IMG/VR virus record: IMGVR_UViG_3300048687_000060
Location: 1-28,038 of that record
Strand: one strand, 5' to 3'
Length of the DNA: 28,038 nt
Source: a virus
Part shown: in pieces, positions 3,684 to 21,603 of the stretch
Layout: every line of letters begins with the position of its first letter
Position numbering within the stretch: the stretch's first letter is position 1
Position numbers and translations under genes: made by a program
The notes under the pieces: generated by a model
Databases searched by the model: none
What the model saw: only the letters and a program-made list of their open reading frames with translations
Told to the model about the DNA's origin: nothing

Positions 3684-4658
3684 CTAAAGCTCCAGAGCGG
3701 AGCAGGCGTTCGCCCGGAACGGGTCCTCCGATCGCATATAGCGCTTCAGCGTCCCGAGCGACCGGTGTCCGCTATGCCGTGCGGTCACAATCTCTCCCAC
3801 GCCCCCCTCCAGAGCACTCGTAATAAATCCTGCTCGCAAGCTGTGCGCCGCGTACTCGGCTGTATCCAGGCCGAGCGCTTCAGCGCCCCTCTTTACAATC
3901 ATCGCCAGCGTGTTTGTGTGAATGGGTTTTTCGTGGGAGATTTTAGACGCCCGCATTCCGCAGAAGACCGGCCCCGGCGTGACGCCGCGGTAGGTCAGCC
4001 AAGCCTTCAAAGCCTGGACAGGACATGTGTCCGCGTGCTTGCCGTTCGGCACTCCGATATAGCGGCCGATCCCGGTCTGGTCCTGCTTCTCCCTGCGGAC
4101 ATGGACCACAAAGCCTTCGGGCCGGAAGTCCACGTCCTCGAGTGTGAACGTCGCGAGGTTCGATCGCCGGAGAGCCGACGTAAAGCCGACCAACAGCACG
4201 GCCTGGTCGCGGGTGCGCGCCGGCTCCGGGCGGTCGATGCTCCACACCATCATCCGGAGTTGCTCGACAGTGATCGCCGCCTTGCCACGCATTTGTTCCC
4301 CGCGAATCCTTTGCGCCCCGGTGAGGATCGTCAGAATCTCCCGCCGCGAAGGCTCGATACATCCCCCCACACGGTGGTGATGGATGATGGCGCAGACATG
4401 GTGCCGCAAGGTGCTGACGCGCTTGTTGTGAAGCAGAGAATCCGTGATGTAAAGCCTCACGGTGTCGGTGGTGGCGGGAAGGGCTTCCCTCCCTTCCTTG
4501 GCACACCACAGGCAAAAGGTTTTCCAATCGCTCGAGTAGGTTTCGAGCGTCCGTGGCGCACGAATCGATTCCTCGAAGTGAAGGCTTTCCCGAAACAGAT
4601 CATTCTCGTCGTTTGTGAAAGCTTCGCGAAACAGGGGGAGTTGCTGGTGAAGTTCCAT
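3684..4658 (-). CDS. int: Tyrosine recombinase (phage integrase)
   Basis: The product is 324 residues. The N-terminal core-binding domain spans about 25-115 (TLETYSSDWKTFCLWCAKEG). The catalytic domain shows the full active-site set: R164 in ALRRSNL, K191 in RREKQ, H272 and R275 in HSLRAGF, H298 in SGHRS and nucleophile Y307 in KRYM. It would catalyse site-specific integration and excision of the phage genome. The ATG at 4658 precedes a typical N-terminus. The protein lacks an obvious arm-binding domain at the extreme N-terminus. It faces left toward the hairpin-dense region and is divergent from the replication gene. Confidence 0.92.
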   Translation of the reverse strand: MELHQQLPLFREAFTNDENDLFRESLHFEESIRAPRTLETYSSDWKTFCLWCAKEGREALPATTDTVRLYITDSLLHNKRVSTLRHHVCAIIHHHRVGGCIEPSRREILTILTGAQRIRGEQMRGKAAITVEQLRMMVWSIDRPEPARTRDQAVLLVGFTSALRRSNLATFTLEDVDFRPEGFVVHVRREKQDQTGIGRYIGVPNGKHADTCPVQALKAWLTYRGVTPGPVFCGMRASKISHEKPIHTNTLAMIVKRGAEALGLDTAEYAAHSLRAGFITSALEGGVGEIVTARHSGHRSLGTLKRYMRSEDPFRANACSALEL

Positions 4659-5018
4659 GTATCAACTGCACCAAACTTGAGATGCGCTCACGGTGAGGCT
4701 AGAGCGGATTATTTACTAACGTTGGACAAAACACACTTCTGGAGGCGAATGTGGCGAATGCAAAGTTGTCAACTTTGAGTACGTGCAGCTGGCGGCCAGC
4801 TTGGGGCAGTTTGGAAAGGCCCCCTCCAATGGAAAATAACTCGTTGCTGCTCCATGCCTGAGAAACATTTAAGGCAGCGACAAGTTACCAAGCCCAGAGA
4901 AGGGAGGGTACTACTGGCTTTATTCTGACATAAGTCTTCAGCCCGTCAACCCTCAATCGACCCTTTTTGTAAATTTTGCCTGCGGTGGCGCGTTGCGCCG
5001 GATTGGGTGTTGGCTTAC
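4659..5018. promoter_or_regulatory. Divergent integrase/replication control region with two palindromes
   Basis: About 360 bp without a gene separates the integrase start from the replication gene. It holds two odd-length perfect palindromes: CAAAGTTG-T-CAACTTTG at 4761-4777 and AGCTGGC-G-GCCAGCT at 4787-4801, with centres 25 bp apart. Read on the minus strand the first contains TTGACA, a consensus -35, but I see no good -10 at the right distance. A GGGGC/GCCCC stem follows at 4803-4823 and TGCCT/AGGCA at about 4856-4877. The palindromes look like operators for a dimeric regulator; which protein binds is unknown. Confidence 0.4.
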
Positions 5019-6251
5019 ATGCCGGATCGGGATCAGGTCTTTCGAGAGTTTCATAAGCAGGTTGGAAACAAGCCGTTTGCCCCGGATTTTATCGACTCCC
5101 TCATCACCGTGATGCGCGCGACCGAGGCCGCCTGCTGGACCGAGCAGGTTTGGGCTTGGCAGCGCTGGCGATCGTGGGCCAACTCCTCCAAGTACGCCGT
5201 CAGCGACTGGAACCCGGACAAGGCGTGGTATCTCGACCAGCTCGACTGCTGCCTGGATCTCTGGTGGCTGCAGCAGGGGCGGGATGTGAAATGGATCGAG
5301 GGGCAGTCTCGGCAATCCAGGGAAGACTACCGGAAGGACTTCCGGCGCAAGCGAGAGGAACAGGAATACCCAGACCTCGTTGCCCTGAAAAACCCGATTA
5401 ACCACGCGTTCTCTAAATTACACTCTCGCGGGAATCTTGACTTTGGGGGGCGGAAGATCTATGCTCTCGTTTCCCCGCCGGCTACTCCCCCGTCCCCGAA
5501 AATCACGCGGACCAATGATTTGTCCATCAAGAACAAGAAGTTTATGGACTGGTGGAAAATCACGTGGACCAATGATTTTCAGGAATTCGAGGAAGCTCGA
5601 AAACGGTACAACGAGGCAAGACAAATCGCGCGGACCGCATATCAGAGATACCTGGACCAAGGGATTTCTGAAGCCCCTATCCTTATAGAGAAAATAATAG
5701 ATAATACTTCGTCGTCGTCAGATACCTCCGCACTAGAAGAAGCGACGACGACGATCTTCCCGGACATTCCTCTTGAAGAACACACACCTCCACCTCCTAC
5801 AACTGTTGGTTTAGATCTCGGGGGAGGTGAAACTAACGGTGCTCCCCAGGAGGTGGTGGTAGATGCTCTTGAGGAGGAACTTCCAGATTTACTGGCAACC
5901 CACGGGAAGGGCTCGCCGACAAAAAAACAATTCTCAGAAGTCCGGAATGAGATTTCCAAGCTTCCGGAACCAAAGCAAGAAGAAGCTATCTTCGTCCGTG
6001 AGTACCTGCCACCCCGACTCTGTAAGATCCAACACGCTGGGGCTCTGCCGACGCTGGCCCAGGAGTTCGTGCGAATCCGGCTAAGGCAATTAGAAAATCA
6101 GAAATCCGTCGCTACGGCCCCCGCATCCCGTGCCGCGCCGCCCCAAGACCAGATCGAATGGGCTCGCGAAATCCTGGCCCATCGGGAAGATCACCCCGCC
6201 ATAGACATCGAAGTAGCTGAAACGCTGATGGGGATGGCGAGCCATGAATGA
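5019..6251 (+). CDS. Putative phage replication initiator with internal iterons
   Basis: The product is 410 residues from the ATG at 5019; a GTG at 5007 would add four. No clear ribosome site precedes either. Residues 1-130 are Trp-rich and helical (WTEQVWAWQRWRSWANSSKYAVSDW, WWLQQGRDVKWIEG), a middle part is charged, and residues 225-300 are a Ser/Pro/Glu-rich disordered linker. I do not recognise the family. The call rests on context: first gene of a plus-strand block divergent from the integrase, and within the gene four GGACC-cored repeats followed by an AT-rich tract, the arrangement of lambda O and its origin. The repeats encode the paired peptides KITRTNDL and KITWTNDF. Its stop overlaps the HNH gene start by 8 nt. 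Confidence 0.5.
   Translation: MPDRDQVFREFHKQVGNKPFAPDFIDSLITVMRATEAACWTEQVWAWQRWRSWANSSKYAVSDWNPDKAWYLDQLDCCLDLWWLQQGRDVKWIEGQSRQSREDYRKDFRRKREEQEYPDLVALKNPINHAFSKLHSRGNLDFGGRKIYALVSPPATPPSPKITRTNDLSIKNKKFMDWWKITWTNDFQEFEEARKRYNEARQIARTAYQRYLDQGISEAPILIEKIIDNTSSSSDTSALEEATTTIFPDIPLEEHTPPPPTTVGLDLGGGETNGAPQEVVVDALEEELPDLLATHGKGSPTKKQFSEVRNEISKLPEPKQEEAIFVREYLPPRLCKIQHAGALPTLAQEFVRIRLRQLENQKSVATAPASRAAPPQDQIEWAREILAHREDHPAIDIEVAETLMGMASHE
5498..5710. other. Candidate replication origin: iterons plus AT-rich tract
   Basis: Two 24-bp direct repeats, 5498-5521 and 5555-5578, differ at one base. Each is a dyad: GAAAATCA, 10 nt, then TGATTT; the second extends to TGATTTTC, giving perfect 8-bp arms over 5555-5580. 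Degenerate copies follow: AAATCGCGCGGACC at 5623-5636 and a right half TGGACCAAGGGATTT at about 5653-5667. GGACC cores are at 5509, 5566, 5632 and 5654. A 27-nt tract at 5683-5709 has only four G/C. Dyad iterons followed by an AT-rich tract inside an initiator gene is the layout of the lambda origin. Confidence 0.5.
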
Positions 6252-6819
6252 CCATCGGCCATGCGAACGGAAGTGTAAGGGCACATGCGGATTATGGAAA
6301 CACCACTCACGATTCGCTAGCCGCAAGCGCGAAACCCCAAACGGTACCGTTTGGGAATTTGATGGAACATGTCGCGACTGCCAGCAAATTGAGCGCAACG
6401 AACAAAAGAACAAGGACCGGCCGTTAGCGATTATCCGGGGGCGCGCTCAATCCGCCGCACGTGAGGCCAGGACAACGATGGAGTTCTTCTGGACGCAGAT
6501 GAATTATCGGGCGCTGGTGCCGTGGTTGCGGGCGATGATGACGCATGAAGGACTTTGCATAGGTTGCGGTCATGCATTCGTAAACGAGCGTGATATTCAG
6601 ATTGACCACTTGTTTCCGCCGCGATATCAGCAAGACTGGGCACGCCTTCATACAAGGAATCTACGATTAGGCTGCGCTTCCTGCAATAACAGCAAGGGTT
6701 CAAAGGACCCTGCTGTTTGGCTCGATGAACAGGAAGGCGCACGCCTCAGCAACCTGGAATATCAGGAGAAACCAGTCGAGGTCATGGATGACCAACCTCA
6801 ACTCTCCCTTGGTTTCTGA
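6244..6819 (+). CDS. HNH endonuclease with two zinc knuckles
   Basis: The product is 191 residues. The N-terminal part has a Cys set (CERKCKGTCGLWKHHSRF and CRDCQ) like the short zinc domain seen before HNH modules. The nuclease domain, about residues 100-165, contains CIGCGHAF, IQIDHLFPPR with the HNH His, LRLGCASCNNSKG with the second Cys pair and the Asn, and a conserved N-x-K. It is a typical McrA-like HNH fold with structural zinc and one catalytic metal. It could be a homing nuclease or a packaging/recombination nuclease; no NUMOD repeats are seen. It overlaps the replication gene by 8 nt, so they are probably cotranscribed. Confidence 0.8.
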   Translation: MNDHRPCERKCKGTCGLWKHHSRFASRKRETPNGTVWEFDGTCRDCQQIERNEQKNKDRPLAIIRGRAQSAAREARTTMEFFWTQMNYRALVPWLRAMMTHEGLCIGCGHAFVNERDIQIDHLFPPRYQQDWARLHTRNLRLGCASCNNSKGSKDPAVWLDEQEGARLSNLEYQEKPVEVMDDQPQLSLGF

Positions 6820-15456: not shown

Positions 15457-16122
15457 TTGGTATCCGACAGTAAAATCTGGAAGCCGGTTCCGAGCCTTAA
15501 GAATATCTATGAGGTCAGCAACTGCGGCGATATCAGAAGAGTCTCTGTTAAAACGAAACTCTCTATTGAAGATGTGGACTTAATACGCTCCGATCGAGAG
15601 GCGGGCAGAAGCTGGCAATCCATCGCTGACAAGGTTGGCGTCTCGAAAATGGCCGTCCGAAAGGCTGTAAGGCCCCGGTTATTCAGTTTTCGAACTCAGT
15701 ACAGACAACTGAAACCGCAGAAGTCATCGCATGGATATCCTATGTTGCGGGTTTCCTTGGATGGCATCCCACGCACTGTCGTAATGCACCGACTAATAGT
15801 TGAAGTCTTCCTGGGTCCTATCCCGAAGGACATGGAAGTTAACCATAAGAACGGCAAACGAGATGATAATCGCATTGAGAATCTGGAAATAGTCACCTGC
15901 TCAGAGAATGCGCGTCACAAGATCGATGTTCTCGGCTATAAACATATTGGACTAAAGGGGTCAGCTTGCCCCTCGTCAAAACTTAACGAAGCAAACGTAG
16001 CAGAGATCAAGGCCCTCAAGGCTACAGGACACACCAACGCATCTTTAGCAGAACGCTTTGGAGTGAAAGACCGGGCGATTAGAAACATACTAGCCCGGCG
16101 AAGTTGGAAGCATTGCCCTTAA
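15457..16122 (+). CDS. NUMOD4-HNH homing endonuclease with two helix-turn-helix parts
   Basis: The product is 221 residues from a TTG at 15457, the only start ahead of the conserved N-terminus; TACAAT at 15445-15450 could be a -10, which would make the message nearly leaderless. Residues 7-29 are a NUMOD4 target-binding motif (WKPVPSLKNIYEVSNCGDIRRV). Residues 35-73 form a helix-turn-helix (IADKVGVSKMAVRKAV). Residues 84-157 are the HNH core (MHRLIVEVFLGPIP, VNHKNGKRDDNRIENLEIVT). A second, similar HTH ends the protein (LAERFGVKDRAIRNIL). It is antisense to the virion operon, between the gp10-like gene and the collagen-like fibre. Confidence 0.88.
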   Translation: MVSDSKIWKPVPSLKNIYEVSNCGDIRRVSVKTKLSIEDVDLIRSDREAGRSWQSIADKVGVSKMAVRKAVRPRLFSFRTQYRQLKPQKSSHGYPMLRVSLDGIPRTVVMHRLIVEVFLGPIPKDMEVNHKNGKRDDNRIENLEIVTCSENARHKIDVLGYKHIGLKGSACPSSKLNEANVAEIKALKATGHTNASLAERFGVKDRAIRNILARRSWKHCP

Positions 16123-17301: not shown

Positions 17302-17481
17302 ATGGCAACTCAAGATGGCAAGATGGACCCTGCCACAAGGGCACGGTTAGAACAGCGGGAGAAGCGCTTACACCTCGACTTACTCGCCTGGTGCGCTAAA
17401 GAGAACCTAGCAGTAACTGTCGCTGCAGATATCGTAACCGCAGCCGCCGAACCCGGAATCCATCTCGGGGATCGGGCTTGA
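17302..17481 (+). CDS. Small antisense ORF between fibre and gp4-like genes
   Basis: A 59-residue frame begins at the ATG at 17302, 14 nt from the divergent start of the collagen-like fibre, and ends inside the 3' end of the gp4-like gene (75-nt antisense overlap). The protein is amphipathic (TRARLEQREKRLHLDLLAWCAKENLAVTVAADIV). I see no strong ribosome site. Similar short plus-strand genes occur elsewhere in this virion cluster, which supports it a little. Function unknown; could be spurious. Confidence 0.38.
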   Translation: MATQDGKMDPATRARLEQREKRLHLDLLAWCAKENLAVTVAADIVTAAAEPGIHLGDRA

Positions 17482-18189
17482 GTTAAACGACTTGACCGCA
17501 GCCTTGCTGTCGATGGCCCGCTGTTCGATCACCTGCAACAGGTTATTCGGGATCTTCATCATGATGAGTGCCGCCGGCGCGAGTTGCAACGCCAATCCCC
17601 AACGCAACGCCAGCGCATACCCGGGAGGAAAGCCGTATTGCGAATCAAGATCCGCAAACCCGGAGAGCGTCTGCCAACTCTGCAATGCCAGCGACTGTCC
17701 GTCAGACGGTGCGGGGTTAATGCGGACATTCGCGTTCGGATACGCCCGGTCGATGTGGATGCCGCAGTTGCAGCCGCAGTCCATCCACCCGGACCGCAAG
17801 ACCAACTGATGGCAGTTGCCGTCCGCGCATCCGCACCCGCAATCGCACGCGACTAACGCAGCGCTCATCACCCGCTGCGGCCGTTCGCCGCTGAGCGTTC
17901 CGCCTGGTCCCAGCGTATAGGAGCCAACGCCCGCAGTCAGCGGATACACACTCCGCTGTAACGCGGGGATCATCAGCGATTCGGTGTTCCAGCTATCGAC
18001 CATGTCGTTGAGCAGGCCGAATGCATCTTCATGGCCCTCAGGGCTGGTCTGCTGTCCTGGACGCAAGACACCGAGGGCTCGGTACGCATCGTAGATCAGC
18101 CGTCGCGCCGTGACGCTACCGGTCCCGCCGCTGCCGTTGCTACCGCCCCAGATAGCGGAGTTCCAGAGGGATTGGTTAAACTGAGGCAT
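17407..18189 (-). CDS. P22 gp4-like tail accessory factor, Cys-rich version
   Basis: The product is 260 residues from the ATG at 18189, which has AGGA upstream; a frame extension to 18333 overlaps the previous gene. The gp4-like features are a helical N-terminus (TARRLIYDAYRALGVLRPGQQTSPEGHEDAFGLLNDMVDSWNTESL), the paired strand YPLTAGVGSYTLGPGG, and PPGYALALRWGLALQLAP. It differs from the second copy at 20363 by an insert of closely spaced cysteines (CDCGCGCADGNC, CGCNCG) and a Cys-bearing C-terminus (GFGGCGYDICSDSYC). gp4 proteins extend the portal and close the head. The cysteines could bind metal or form disulfides in the virion. Confidence 0.78.
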   Translation of the reverse strand: MPQFNQSLWNSAIWGGSNGSGGTGSVTARRLIYDAYRALGVLRPGQQTSPEGHEDAFGLLNDMVDSWNTESLMIPALQRSVYPLTAGVGSYTLGPGGTLSGERPQRVMSAALVACDCGCGCADGNCHQLVLRSGWMDCGCNCGIHIDRAYPNANVRINPAPSDGQSLALQSWQTLSGFADLDSQYGFPPGYALALRWGLALQLAPAALIMMKIPNNLLQVIEQRAIDSKAAVKSFNSSPIPEMDSGFGGCGYDICSDSYC

Positions 18190-18290
18190 TACTGTGGTCC
18201 TGTTAGTTGTCGCTTCACTTACGCTAATCGCGGTCTTCTCGTTCTTTTCGCTACTGCTGTTTGTCGGCGCTTGGCCCGGTCGAAGCTGAC

Positions 18291-20330
18291 TCAGGTGTAA
18301 CTGGGCCACCACTGTGAGTCGACCGCATCCCACACCAACTCCAAAGCCCTGCCGGCAACGGCGGTGCCGGCCACCCGGATATTGCCCGCGGTGGTCCAGG
18401 TGAAACCGGCCACCGGAAGCAGGGTCAGTTTTTGGGAGAACGTGTCTGGCACGGTAATGGTGTTGATGGGAGTCGTTCCGAGGATGATGGTCACCGGGTT
18501 GACCGGAGATATCGTTGCGGCAGCGTTGATGGGCGTGGCAATCACGTCGTCGATCCCCTTGTTGCCGACCACATAGCGGTTAACGCCCTTGCCGGATACC
18601 GGGACGTTTATCGACTTGAAGGTGTTGCCGATCACCGCGGTATCTACCGCTGCGGCGTTGATCTGGACGCCCGTGCCGCCGATCATCAGGTGATTCGAGC
18701 TGACACTGGTCGCCCTTGCGCTTGCCCCCACCGCTATGAGTACGGGTATTTCCGGGGTGCCGCCCCCGTTCATGTGGTTCCCCTCGATCATCACGTTCGC
18801 CCCGTTGGTGTCGACCAGCGGCACGGAGGACGAGCCGGCCCCCCCGGTGATGAGGTTGGAGGAAAAGAGCACCGAGTCGGTACTGCTGGTCAGCTTCAGC
18901 GGATTCACGTTCGCGGCGGGATTCAGCGACATCCAACAGTTAACTATCTGCAGGTTGGCTACATTCTGCGCGTAGACGCCCGCACCCTCCATGTCGCACT
19001 CCGAGACGAAGTAGTTGCTCTGCGCCCCTCCACCTGAACCGGGAGGCATGGCAGGGCCGAAATAGATGGCCGCGGTGGTGCAGCCGTTCATGATGCAATC
19101 CCGGAACTCGAGCCCTGACGTCCAGTCGCCGATGCGGAACGGGTTGCCGACGATATCCGCCGTCTCGCAGTGCATCAGGTTACAGGTGATCGACTGGTTG
19201 CCTGCATCCTGGCCCGAGATGAAGACCGCGTGGCTACGAGTCGCTTTGATGTAGTTGTTCCACAGGTTGACCTGGATGGCCCGGTAGAGGTTGATGCCGC
19301 CCCAGATCAGGTTGTTGCCGTAGATATAGCAGTCGCGGATCTCGCACCGGCCCGCATTGCGGACGTTGATCGCCCACCCTGAAGTCCAGGCTGCGCTGGT
19401 GGTGGAGAAGACCAACCCCGAGACGACTGCTGTCACAGTCCCGGCCGCCCCGTTGTCGCCGATCCAGATGCAGTCGGTATTAATTGATGCCTGCTTGATC
19501 TCGCATCCCCAGATGGGCACTCCCTCAAGTTCATGAGCATCCGCGAGCCAGATCGGCGCGTGGATGGTGGTGACCTGCTGGGTCACGGCGACATAGCGCG
19601 AGAGGTTCAGCGCTTCCTCGATGCCCGCGGTCGCGCTTGAGATCCTCCAGGCCCCACTGTGCGCGAAGGCGCAGGTAACAATCACCGTGCCGGATGCCGC
19701 GCCCGATACCGCGGTTCCCCCGGTAATCTCGACAGCTTCCGGCGTTCCCGTGCCCTGATCGATCCAGAGAAAATGGTGTTTGTCCGTTCCATTGACTCCT
19801 TGCGGCACCGGGGTCAGCGTGATCACGTTCGCGCCTATGATCAGGTTGCCGCCGGGAAGCTGCGGTGTGAAGTTGTAGGCATGCGCGATGATCGTAGACC
19901 CGCTGCCACCCGAGCCACCGACGTTGCTCAGGTTCGGGCCGAGGGCTTGCTCGATCGCCTCGACTTCGGCAACCAGAGCGTTATGATGCCACGCATCGAT
20001 ATTCGACTTGAGCACCGATCCCGAGGCGTGCGATGACGGCTGCGTGCCGTCGAAGCCGCGGACCACTGTGATGTTATTGCCGCTGACGGACGACACGCTG
20101 ACGATCTCGCTGTCAATCGACAGCAGCATGTCCTGGACGATCCGCGAGGTGTCGCCAAGGGTGAAGATCGTGTCGCCGGAGCCGACGTTGCCGCGCAGGG
20201 TAGCCTCGACGCGGTTGGCGGCCACCTTCAGCGAGGCGTCGGTGACAACGCTTCCGGGGTAGCGGGCAACGGGACGGACCAGCGTCCCCTGCATCAGACC
20301 AACGCAGTTGTCGCCGTTAGTAGTAGTCAT
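18291..20330 (-). CDS. Tailspike/tail fibre with right-handed beta-helix
   Basis: The product is 679 residues from the ATG at 20330, which has AAAAGGACG upstream; a TTG at 20366 would add 12 residues overlapping the upstream stop. Residues 1-140 form a virion-attachment type module (TIFTLGDTSRIVQDMLLSIDSEIVSVSSVSGNNITVVRGFDGTQPSSHA...AWHHNALVAEVEAIEQALG) found in many phage fibres. Residues about 250-620 show parallel-beta-helix repeats (INVRNAGRCEIRDCYIYGNN, NLWNNYIKATRSHAVFISG, LQIVNCWMSLNP, VMIEGNHMNGGG). A C-terminal cap follows. Such spikes bind and often cut surface polysaccharide; the catalytic residues cannot be assigned. It lies between the two gp4-like genes. Confidence 0.8.
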   Translation of the reverse strand: MTTTNGDNCVGLMQGTLVRPVARYPGSVVTDASLKVAANRVEATLRGNVGSGDTIFTLGDTSRIVQDMLLSIDSEIVSVSSVSGNNITVVRGFDGTQPSSHASGSVLKSNIDAWHHNALVAEVEAIEQALGPNLSNVGGSGGSGSTIIAHAYNFTPQLPGGNLIIGANVITLTPVPQGVNGTDKHHFLWIDQGTGTPEAVEITGGTAVSGAASGTVIVTCAFAHSGAWRISSATAGIEEALNLSRYVAVTQQVTTIHAPIWLADAHELEGVPIWGCEIKQASINTDCIWIGDNGAAGTVTAVVSGLVFSTTSAAWTSGWAINVRNAGRCEIRDCYIYGNNLIWGGINLYRAIQVNLWNNYIKATRSHAVFISGQDAGNQSITCNLMHCETADIVGNPFRIGDWTSGLEFRDCIMNGCTTAAIYFGPAMPPGSGGGAQSNYFVSECDMEGAGVYAQNVANLQIVNCWMSLNPAANVNPLKLTSSTDSVLFSSNLITGGAGSSSVPLVDTNGANVMIEGNHMNGGGTPEIPVLIAVGASARATSVSSNHLMIGGTGVQINAAAVDTAVIGNTFKSINVPVSGKGVNRYVVGNKGIDDVIATPINAAATISPVNPVTIILGTTPINTITVPDTFSQKLTLLPVAGFTWTTAGNIRVAGTAVAGRALELVWDAVDSQWWPSYT

Positions 20331-20362: not shown

Positions 20363-21013
20363 TCAAGAAGCTGCGGGTACAGCCGCCGAAGCCACGCCCT
20401 GCCCGATAGCTGCGGCGTTCATGCTGGCAATCGCAGTCGTCGCCTGCGCTACCCCAGATGCAACTTCGGGCGGTAACGCCGAGCCGTATTCGGGGGCCAG
20501 CACCCCGGCTAATCCAAAGCGGAGGGCCTGTTCATATCCGGGTGGCAGGTTGATCGTATCGGCTAGCGAGGCGAACTGCGCGAGCGGACGCAAGACGTAC
20601 ACGTTGAGTGTGCTGCCGAATCCCGGAGACGGCCAGAGGAAGATGGACCCGACAGGGTAGCCGCCATCGTAATAGAGTTCCTTGGCGAACTTCGAGGTAG
20701 CCGTCCGGTCCTTGGGCTGGGTCCATTGCTGCGAGTTGACGATCGCTACCGGGAAGCTGACCCCACCATTGATCACCTGTGCGGAGAGAATCCTTACCGG
20801 ACGTGTGGGGAGCGGATACAAGGCCGCTCCGGTCAAGTCGATTCCCTCTCTCGATTCCTGATATACAGGCACGCCCGCCGCGGACCAGCTCCCGATGAGT
20901 TGGTTTAAAGCGGTGAGCGCGTTATCCGATTCGGTCGCGGTTGGCTGCTCGCCCGAGTCGAGCACGCGAATCAGGCGCAGTGTGGAATTGATAAATTCCT
21001 GCACGGTTGGCAT
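20363..21013 (-). CDS. P22 gp4-like tail accessory factor
   Basis: The product is 216 residues; P22 gp4 has 166. The ATG at 21013 follows AGAGGA. The helical N-terminus (TVQEFINSTLRLIRVLDSGEQPTATESDNALTALNQLIGSWSAAGV) and PPGYEQALRFGLAGVLAPEYGSALPPEVASGVAQATTAI match the gp4 family well, including the conserved PPGYE-ALR motif. The protein would form a ring under the portal that receives the gp10-like hub. It starts the run after the HNH insertion at 21097 and precedes the tailspike. A second copy with a Cys-rich insert is at 17407. Confidence 0.82.
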   Translation of the reverse strand: MPTVQEFINSTLRLIRVLDSGEQPTATESDNALTALNQLIGSWSAAGVPVYQESREGIDLTGAALYPLPTRPVRILSAQVINGGVSFPVAIVNSQQWTQPKDRTATSKFAKELYYDGGYPVGSIFLWPSPGFGSTLNVYVLRPLAQFASLADTINLPPGYEQALRFGLAGVLAPEYGSALPPEVASGVAQATTAIASMNAAAIGQGVASAAVPAAS

Positions 21014-21096: not shown

Positions 21097-21603
21097 ATGC
21101 CTACCCAACCTACCAGATTCGAGTACCTGCTTGAAGCACTCAAGCACCCACCGGCAGATGAGTCAACGTGTATGGAGTGGCCCTATGCATTGAACCGTGA
21201 CGGCTACGGTCGCCTGAAATCGGCAATGGGAACATGGGCCCATCGCGCTGCTTATATTCTTTACTACGGTCCTTTGTTACCCGGGCTTTGGTACATCTGC
21301 CATCACTGCGACAACCCTAAGTGCTTTCGCCCTTCCCATTTATTCCTTGGAACACCTACCGACAACATGCAGGACTGCAAGCATAAAGGCCGCTACAGAG
21401 TCCGCCCCGTATACGGAGCAGGAAACGGACGCAGTAAAGTAACCGAAGCCCAGATAGGGGAGATAAACACAATGTATCTTTCCGGCAACTTCCAGAAGAA
21501 AGATATTGCAAAACAATTCGGAATTAACGCTTCAACGCTAAGGAAAATCGCTACTCGGAAACTCTGGGCTCATCGCACCGATCTCGAGTGGGATAAGCCC
21601 TAG
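21097..21603 (+). CDS. HNH homing endonuclease, HNH_3 type
   Basis: The product is 168 residues, with GGAGGGG at 21085-21091. The HNH_3 domain occupies about 24-100: CMEWPYALNRDGYGRL, AHRAAYILYYGPLLPG, the metal/active site HHCDNPKCFRPSHLFLGTPTDNMQDCKHKGR. A C-terminal helix-turn-helix (about 115-155: TEAQIGEINTMYLSGNFQKKDIAKQFGINASTLRKI) probably reads the target. It is antisense to the virion operon, between gp4-like factor 1 and the 207-residue gene, and its stop is 3 nt from the stop of the latter. Confidence 0.88.
   Translation: MPTQPTRFEYLLEALKHPPADESTCMEWPYALNRDGYGRLKSAMGTWAHRAAYILYYGPLLPGLWYICHHCDNPKCFRPSHLFLGTPTDNMQDCKHKGRYRVRPVYGAGNGRSKVTEAQIGEINTMYLSGNFQKKDIAKQFGINASTLRKIATRKLWAHRTDLEWDKP

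Follow-up and report, generated by a model that had tools for sequence, protein, structure and literature searches.

The window, by which we mean the whole 28-kb viral record analyzed here (28,038 nt), comes from a P22-like podophage and encodes portal, scaffold, coat, head-closure and ejection proteins that match PHROGs 156, 8865, 283, 578 and 598. A 410-aa ORF opens the gene block divergent from a tyrosine integrase gene, as the preliminary description had placed it, and its end is overlapped by an HNH endonuclease gene (PHROG 1035, E 3e-10; Pfam HNH). The 410-aa ORF, an unclassified soil-phage gene, very probably encodes the initiator of phage DNA replication and also contains the start site. 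The features of the locus are as follows.

3684-4658, minus strand: tyrosine integrase gene, divergent neighbor of the initiator gene
5019-6251, plus strand: putative replication initiator gene (410 aa; ATG at 5019, alternative GTG start at 5007)
5310-5468, plus strand: candidate winged-helix DNA-binding region (residues ~98-150, helices and a two-strand wing)
5498-5521, plus strand: iteron 1, 24-bp repeat GAAAATCACGCGGACCAATGATTT
5555-5578, plus strand: iteron 2, GAAAATCACGTGGACCAATGATTT, identical to iteron 1 at 23 of 24 positions
5623-5636, plus strand: degenerate half-iteron 3, AAATCGCGCGGACC, about half of the repeat kept
5650-5668, plus strand: degenerate half-iteron 4, ACCTGGACCAAGGGATTTC, about half of the repeat kept, in another reading frame
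5683-5709: A/T-rich tract, probable unwinding element (23 of 27 A/T)
5709-5719: left arm of the putative origin hairpin, TCGTCGTCGTC, directly past the A/T tract
5744-5754: right arm of the putative origin hairpin, GACGACGACGA, after a 24-nt loop
5868-6248, plus strand: C-terminal helical domain
6244-6819, plus strand: HNH endonuclease gene (endonuclease VII-like)

The preliminary description had reported two 24-bp repeats with a one-base difference, two degenerate copies sharing a GGACC core, and an A/T tract, and all of these were recovered, with the cores at 5509, 5566, 5632 and 5654 and the tract as the A/T-richest 27-mer of the window. The dyads, with outer arms AAATCA/TGATTT (6 bp, or 7 bp in copy 2) around a 10-nt centre, are weak and were inconspicuous when palindromes were tested in general. 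Copies 1 to 3 share a reading frame, at spacings of 57 and 66, while copy 4, 22 nt further on, lies in another, so the repeat is more than a repeated peptide. Furthermore, the 23/24 match was reached in none of 300 synonymous-codon shuffles of the gene with the protein held fixed, which together with the frame of copy 4 identifies the repeats as a DNA feature. A looser 14-mer pattern was not rare in the 28 kb (3 seen against 1.6 expected; at least 3 in 24 of 100 shuffles), and the unusual features are the close 24-bp pair and the clustering rather than the 14-mer pattern alone. Iterons in direct and inverted repeat within the gene, though with weak dyads, and an A/T-rich tract directly past them are both characteristic of the lambda-O type.

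GC skew across the window, a check proposed in the preliminary description, gave no signal and was uninformative on the origin either way. No helicase loader (lambda P, DnaC) or DnaB gene was found among the ORFs scanned in this record, which is a fragment, as are the records compared with it. Elsewhere in the window, two HNH homing-type endonuclease genes (15457-16122 and 21097-21603, plus strand) lie within the minus-strand structural block, and a GIY-YIG/NUMOD3 homing endonuclease-like gene (1523-2284) adjoins a Gp157/Gam-like gene. Two minus-strand genes (17407-18333 and 20363-21013) both match PHROG 12985, an apparent duplication on either side of a 691-aa ORF.

An inverted repeat shared by unrelated replication genes

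Directly past the A/T tract we found a perfect 11-bp inverted repeat, TCGTCGTCGTC-N24-GACGACGACGA, that was absent from the preliminary description. The same arms with another loop were present in G007 (40 kb; L054 in the scan below), the one record among 14 fetched coat-protein relatives that encodes an initiator homologue. When synonymous codons were shuffled, 18 of 1000 versions of the window gene gained an inverted repeat of 11 bp within 45 nt, whereas none of 1000 versions of the G007 gene matched its observed count. Exact TCGTCGTCGTC/GACGACGACGA arms with a loop of 10-40 nt were found in 21 of 2.9 million viral contigs scanned; as exact arms were demanded, the invariance of the arms is partly built in. 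Two of the contigs (L041 and L044) were near-identical. About 18 different loops occurred, which indicates that most copies are not recent duplicates.

About twenty other phages, many of them unrelated, thus have the hairpin in a comparable position. About 16 of the 21 matches fell within replication-type ORFs. These comprised ORFs assigned by PHROG (L041/L044, L046, L048, L049 and L053; replication proteins phrog_22470 and 3926, primosomal proteins 9327 and 3992), close relatives of such ORFs (L045 and L059), and ORFs from the loose family to which the window protein belongs (L040, L042, L043, L047, L052, L054, L056 and L058). In four contigs the hairpin was intergenic, with clear iterons adjoining in L050, L051 and L060 and none in L055, and a GCGTATTGA motif was found upstream of it in all four (L050 7780-7910, L051 1655-1735, L055 1800-1936, L060 1275-1395). 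This conserved motif lies near integrase genes in L051, L055 and L060. The remaining hairpin, in L057, is at a contig end and was counted in neither group.

Each of the 18 hairpin records tested contained a single site, and the reversed control pattern gave 0; with arms of 7 bp, only one site was found elsewhere in 639 kb of examined DNA (L049, 11030). The 40 nt before the hairpin were A/T-enriched in most other loci. The upstream iterons differed between families: AAAGTCCGC..GCGGACTTT in L040, the GTTGCGTACGCAAC type in L047, the TGTACA type in L043 and L058, GTGACATGTCAC in L046 and AAAGTCATCA..TGATGACTTT in L052. On this basis we define a TCG/GAC hairpin-origin class as TCGTCGTCGTC-N10..40-GACGACGACGA past an A/T or purine tract at a single site per record, to which the window belongs.

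The hairpin is translated as SSSS..TTT, SSSS..DDDD, VVVV..TTT or VVV..DDD (four frame combinations) or is untranslated, and is thus a nucleic-acid element. A protein-level SSSS/TTT linker was ruled out by these several reading frames and by the intergenic copies. DNA folding gave z-scores of -2.9 to -4.7 for the hairpins tested. A literature search for the hairpin sequence returned nothing relevant, and DNA searches with the window origin in phages and the L060 origin in plasmids gave no match. We also considered whether phage initiators generally have an inverted repeat past the A/T tract; enrichment was not significant in 21 others, including named phages. The TCG/GAC hairpin is therefore a feature of some such origins and does not reflect a general need.

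The pure triplet composition of the arms invites another reading, which keeps the initiator and iterons as in the explanation that we prefer (below) and takes the TCG/GAC repeat to be two outward-facing arrays of a triplet recognized by primase, 5'-GTC on each strand, instead of a folded hairpin. The GTC runs do lie on opposite strands, and extra repeat units occur on one arm only in L041, L053 and L047. The scan demanded complementary arms and hence does not separate a triplet array from a hairpin. We regard the paired arrays as unlikely, though a serious alternative.

The putative initiator protein, its relatives and the exchange of modules

In profile and sequence searches, the 410-aa protein matched nothing in Pfam, NCBIfam, PHROG, PDB or named phages, in line with the earlier view that the initiator is of an unrecognized family. 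In particular, the protein does not belong by sequence to the O-like families (phrog_391, 345 and 678) and has no profile match to DUF1376/phrog_22470 replication proteins. A tblastn search in named phages with the window protein (P0001) and its L016 and L042 relatives found no match, single-sequence scans with the initiator or the HNH protein found no relatives, and genome-collection scans with the initiator C-terminal domain and with the coat protein were likewise negative.

The preliminary description had proposed a search for a winged-helix initiator fold. AlphaFold, run with an alignment of nine diverged sequences, placed helices and a two-strand wing around residues 98-150. The pLDDT was ~60-74 across the helices (~67-74 around residues 110-140) and dropped in the wing. 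By profile, this part of the protein weakly matched the winged-helix region of L030; an N-terminal winged helix is thereby suggested. The whole model was of low confidence (pLDDT 57, pTM 0.31), and Foldseek returned nothing significant from the fold library. The C-terminal helical domain was better defined (pLDDT mostly 70-90); it is common to otherwise different initiators and is 39% identical to that of L016.

The G007 homologue shares the C-terminal domain (39% identity over 131 aa) and has a different N-terminal part. Its gene contains perfect 23-bp palindromes, AATGTTGCTGTnACAGCAACATT, and partial copies unlike the window iterons, and is followed by an HNH gene whose product is 71% identical to that of the window. 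Palindromic iterons also occupy the matching gene part in L016, L040, L047 and L052. The last three share N-terminal similarity with the window and have their iterons in the same stretch; at the protein position that matches window iteron 2, DWWKVRYAADFEDFE, L040 carries a palindrome of another sequence. The L052 gene spans the contig ends, and its N-terminal part is 37% identical to that of the window (E 1e-21). An outer GAAA(A/G)TC arm is common to the iterons of the window, L040 and L052, and L052 shares both outer arms, GAAA(A/G)TC..GA(T/C)TTTC. The N-terminal similarity of L052 and the common iteron arms link the N-terminal half of the protein to the iteron sequence. As no close relative exists, the proposed check on whether relatives keep the repeats at the DNA level covered position and architecture.

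The protein parts before (N) and after (C) the hairpin were compared by z. The window and G007 were related only in the C part (N z 0.5, C z 24.6), as were L040 and L042 (2.3 and 83.5) and L048 and L059 (-0.1 and 76). The reverse was found for L042 and L043 (N z 28.5, C z 0.8) and for L058 and L043 (62.7 and 0.3). In L050, where the hairpin is intergenic, the C-terminal part of the protein is related to that of L043 (z 7.7). The iterons and flanking protein domains thus exchange freely while the hairpin remains, with a variable DNA-binding module on one side of it and a distinct C-terminal module on the other.

Such reassortment in many pairs is also what would be expected if the inverted repeat were a recombination joint that swaps the N-terminal domain and iterons against C-terminal domains. 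However, none of the four intergenic copies is at a domain boundary, with the initiator-like gene of L050 ~770 bp away, and 11 bp of homology per arm is short for this purpose; conservation of an origin core might instead give rise to the swapping as a side effect. We consider a recombination joint improbable.

The HNH gene provides further context, as its relatives are 60-71% identical and most adjoin replication genes. Of 10 other loci, 6 had a recognized replication gene in this position: L025 (O-like, three palindromic iterons), L026 (phrog_3926), L030, L033 (D5 primase/helicase), L034 (phrog_22470) and L036. In L032, the HNH relative follows an apparent terminase gene instead. A perfect 20-bp palindrome, CCCAAACGGTACCGTTTGGG, lies within the window HNH gene at 6336-6355, ~0.6 kb past the hairpin.

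Proposed origin and comparison with known systems

In phage lambda (NC_001416), the O gene spans 38686-39585, the annotated ori has its iterons within O, and an A/T tract and then a short inverted repeat follow. The lambda iterons are imperfect inverted repeats, and the A/T tract is needed for unwinding (PMC7466680). The window shares this order of elements within an initiator gene. In contrast, its protein has no detectable sequence or profile similarity to O, its iteron differs, its hairpin is longer and made of triplet repeats, and the next gene encodes an HNH protein and not P.

We conclude that the window, from a temperate P22-like podophage, probably contains the origin at which the phage replicates and the matching initiator, built on the lambda O/ori plan with a hairpin that crosses families. 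What was observed is the repeats, the tract and the hairpin, their order, the recurrence of this order in other phages and the single copy of the hairpin per record. The layout, the synteny and the comparison with the family give good support to a lambda-O-like initiator with an in-gene origin, and lambda-type architecture with a new initiator family appears to be the best reading of the sequence. The lambda-type origin proposed in the preliminary description is supported in part: by the order of iterons and A/T tract in an initiator-like gene, by the palindromic iterons of relatives and by the HNH synteny, while a winged-helix fold is weakly supported. Against this explanation, neither profile nor fold searches linked the protein to a known initiator, the dyads of the window are weak, no loader was found among the scanned ORFs, the hairpin scan demanded exact arms, and other initiators showed no significant enrichment of an inverted repeat past the tract.

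By analogy with lambda, the N-terminal half of the 410-aa protein would bind the iterons in its own coding sequence, the initiator multimer would melt the adjacent A/T tract, and the C-terminal domain would recruit the replicative helicase. Once the DNA is melted, the hairpin would fold on both strands and most likely mark the landing or start site of the general replication machinery (helicase, primase or loader), perhaps serving as a landing or priming site. Because the hairpin is kept through changes of initiator, iterons and C-terminal domain, it more likely has a partner that these phages share, such as a host helicase, primase or loader, or the structure of the DNA itself. More tentatively, and as a possibility that we rate somewhat below even, the TCG/CGA triplet hairpin may be a portable core of phage origins that is used by several unrelated initiator families and recognized by a common host factor (helicase, primase or loader) and not by the initiator, with the window protein founding an undescribed family of re-assorting DNA-binding and C-terminal domains.

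A product that binds repeats in its own gene would also fit an auto-regulating DNA-binding protein at its operator; however, the repeats lie mid-gene rather than at a promoter, and recognized replication initiators have the same layout, so that an operator in place of an origin seems very improbable. Least likely of all is that the inverted repeat acts in mRNA to control translation or the transcript of the initiator, since, although it would also fold as RNA (z -1.9, 141 nt), it occurs in intergenic origins as well, follows iterons and an A/T tract where these are visible, and has no T run after it.

If the origin reading is right, the hairpin offers a sequence signature for origins in uncultured phages, including those with family-less initiators, a new initiator family is named, and the results point to an origin element that something common to unrelated initiators recognizes. 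The hand-over from phage initiator to host replisome would then be testable by mutating the 46-bp element.

Other known systems resemble the window in part. DUF1376-type proteins (phrog_22470; Pseudomonas phage phi297, Burkholderia phage Magia) also have repeats and a purine- or A/T-rich tract in the gene, and their metagenomic members L045, L046 and L059 carry hairpin arms identical to those of the window, although the protein is unrelated and phi297, Hali and Ostro are without the TCG hairpin. The actinophage RepA-like initiators (phrog_3926, e.g. Gordonia phage Birdsong) are similarly small and often near HNH/resolvase and DnaB genes; their metagenomic members L049 and L053 carry the hairpin, whereas the named actinophage members checked do not. 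In the DnaA-trio of bacterial origins, repeated trinucleotides (3'-G/AAT-5') by the unwinding region are bound by DnaA (PMC10797057); the position next to the unwinding region is alike, but the triplet is another one and there is no inverted repeat.

In Magia (L073, 1898-1948), a GGC-triplet inverted repeat, GGCGGCGGCA-N31-TGCCGCCGCC, lies directly past the A/T tract of the replication gene. Past the DUF1376-type gene repeats of Pseudomonas phages phi297 (L072), Ostro (L074) and Hali (L075), we observed tandem GGGACA/GGGAGA purine repeats with an A/T-rich stretch at their end, which is TATTTAAAAGATC in both Ostro and Hali and TTAAAGATC in phi297. Additionally, (CG)5 arms around an A/T-rich loop were found in the middle of the DUF1376 replication gene of L034 (3638-3707).
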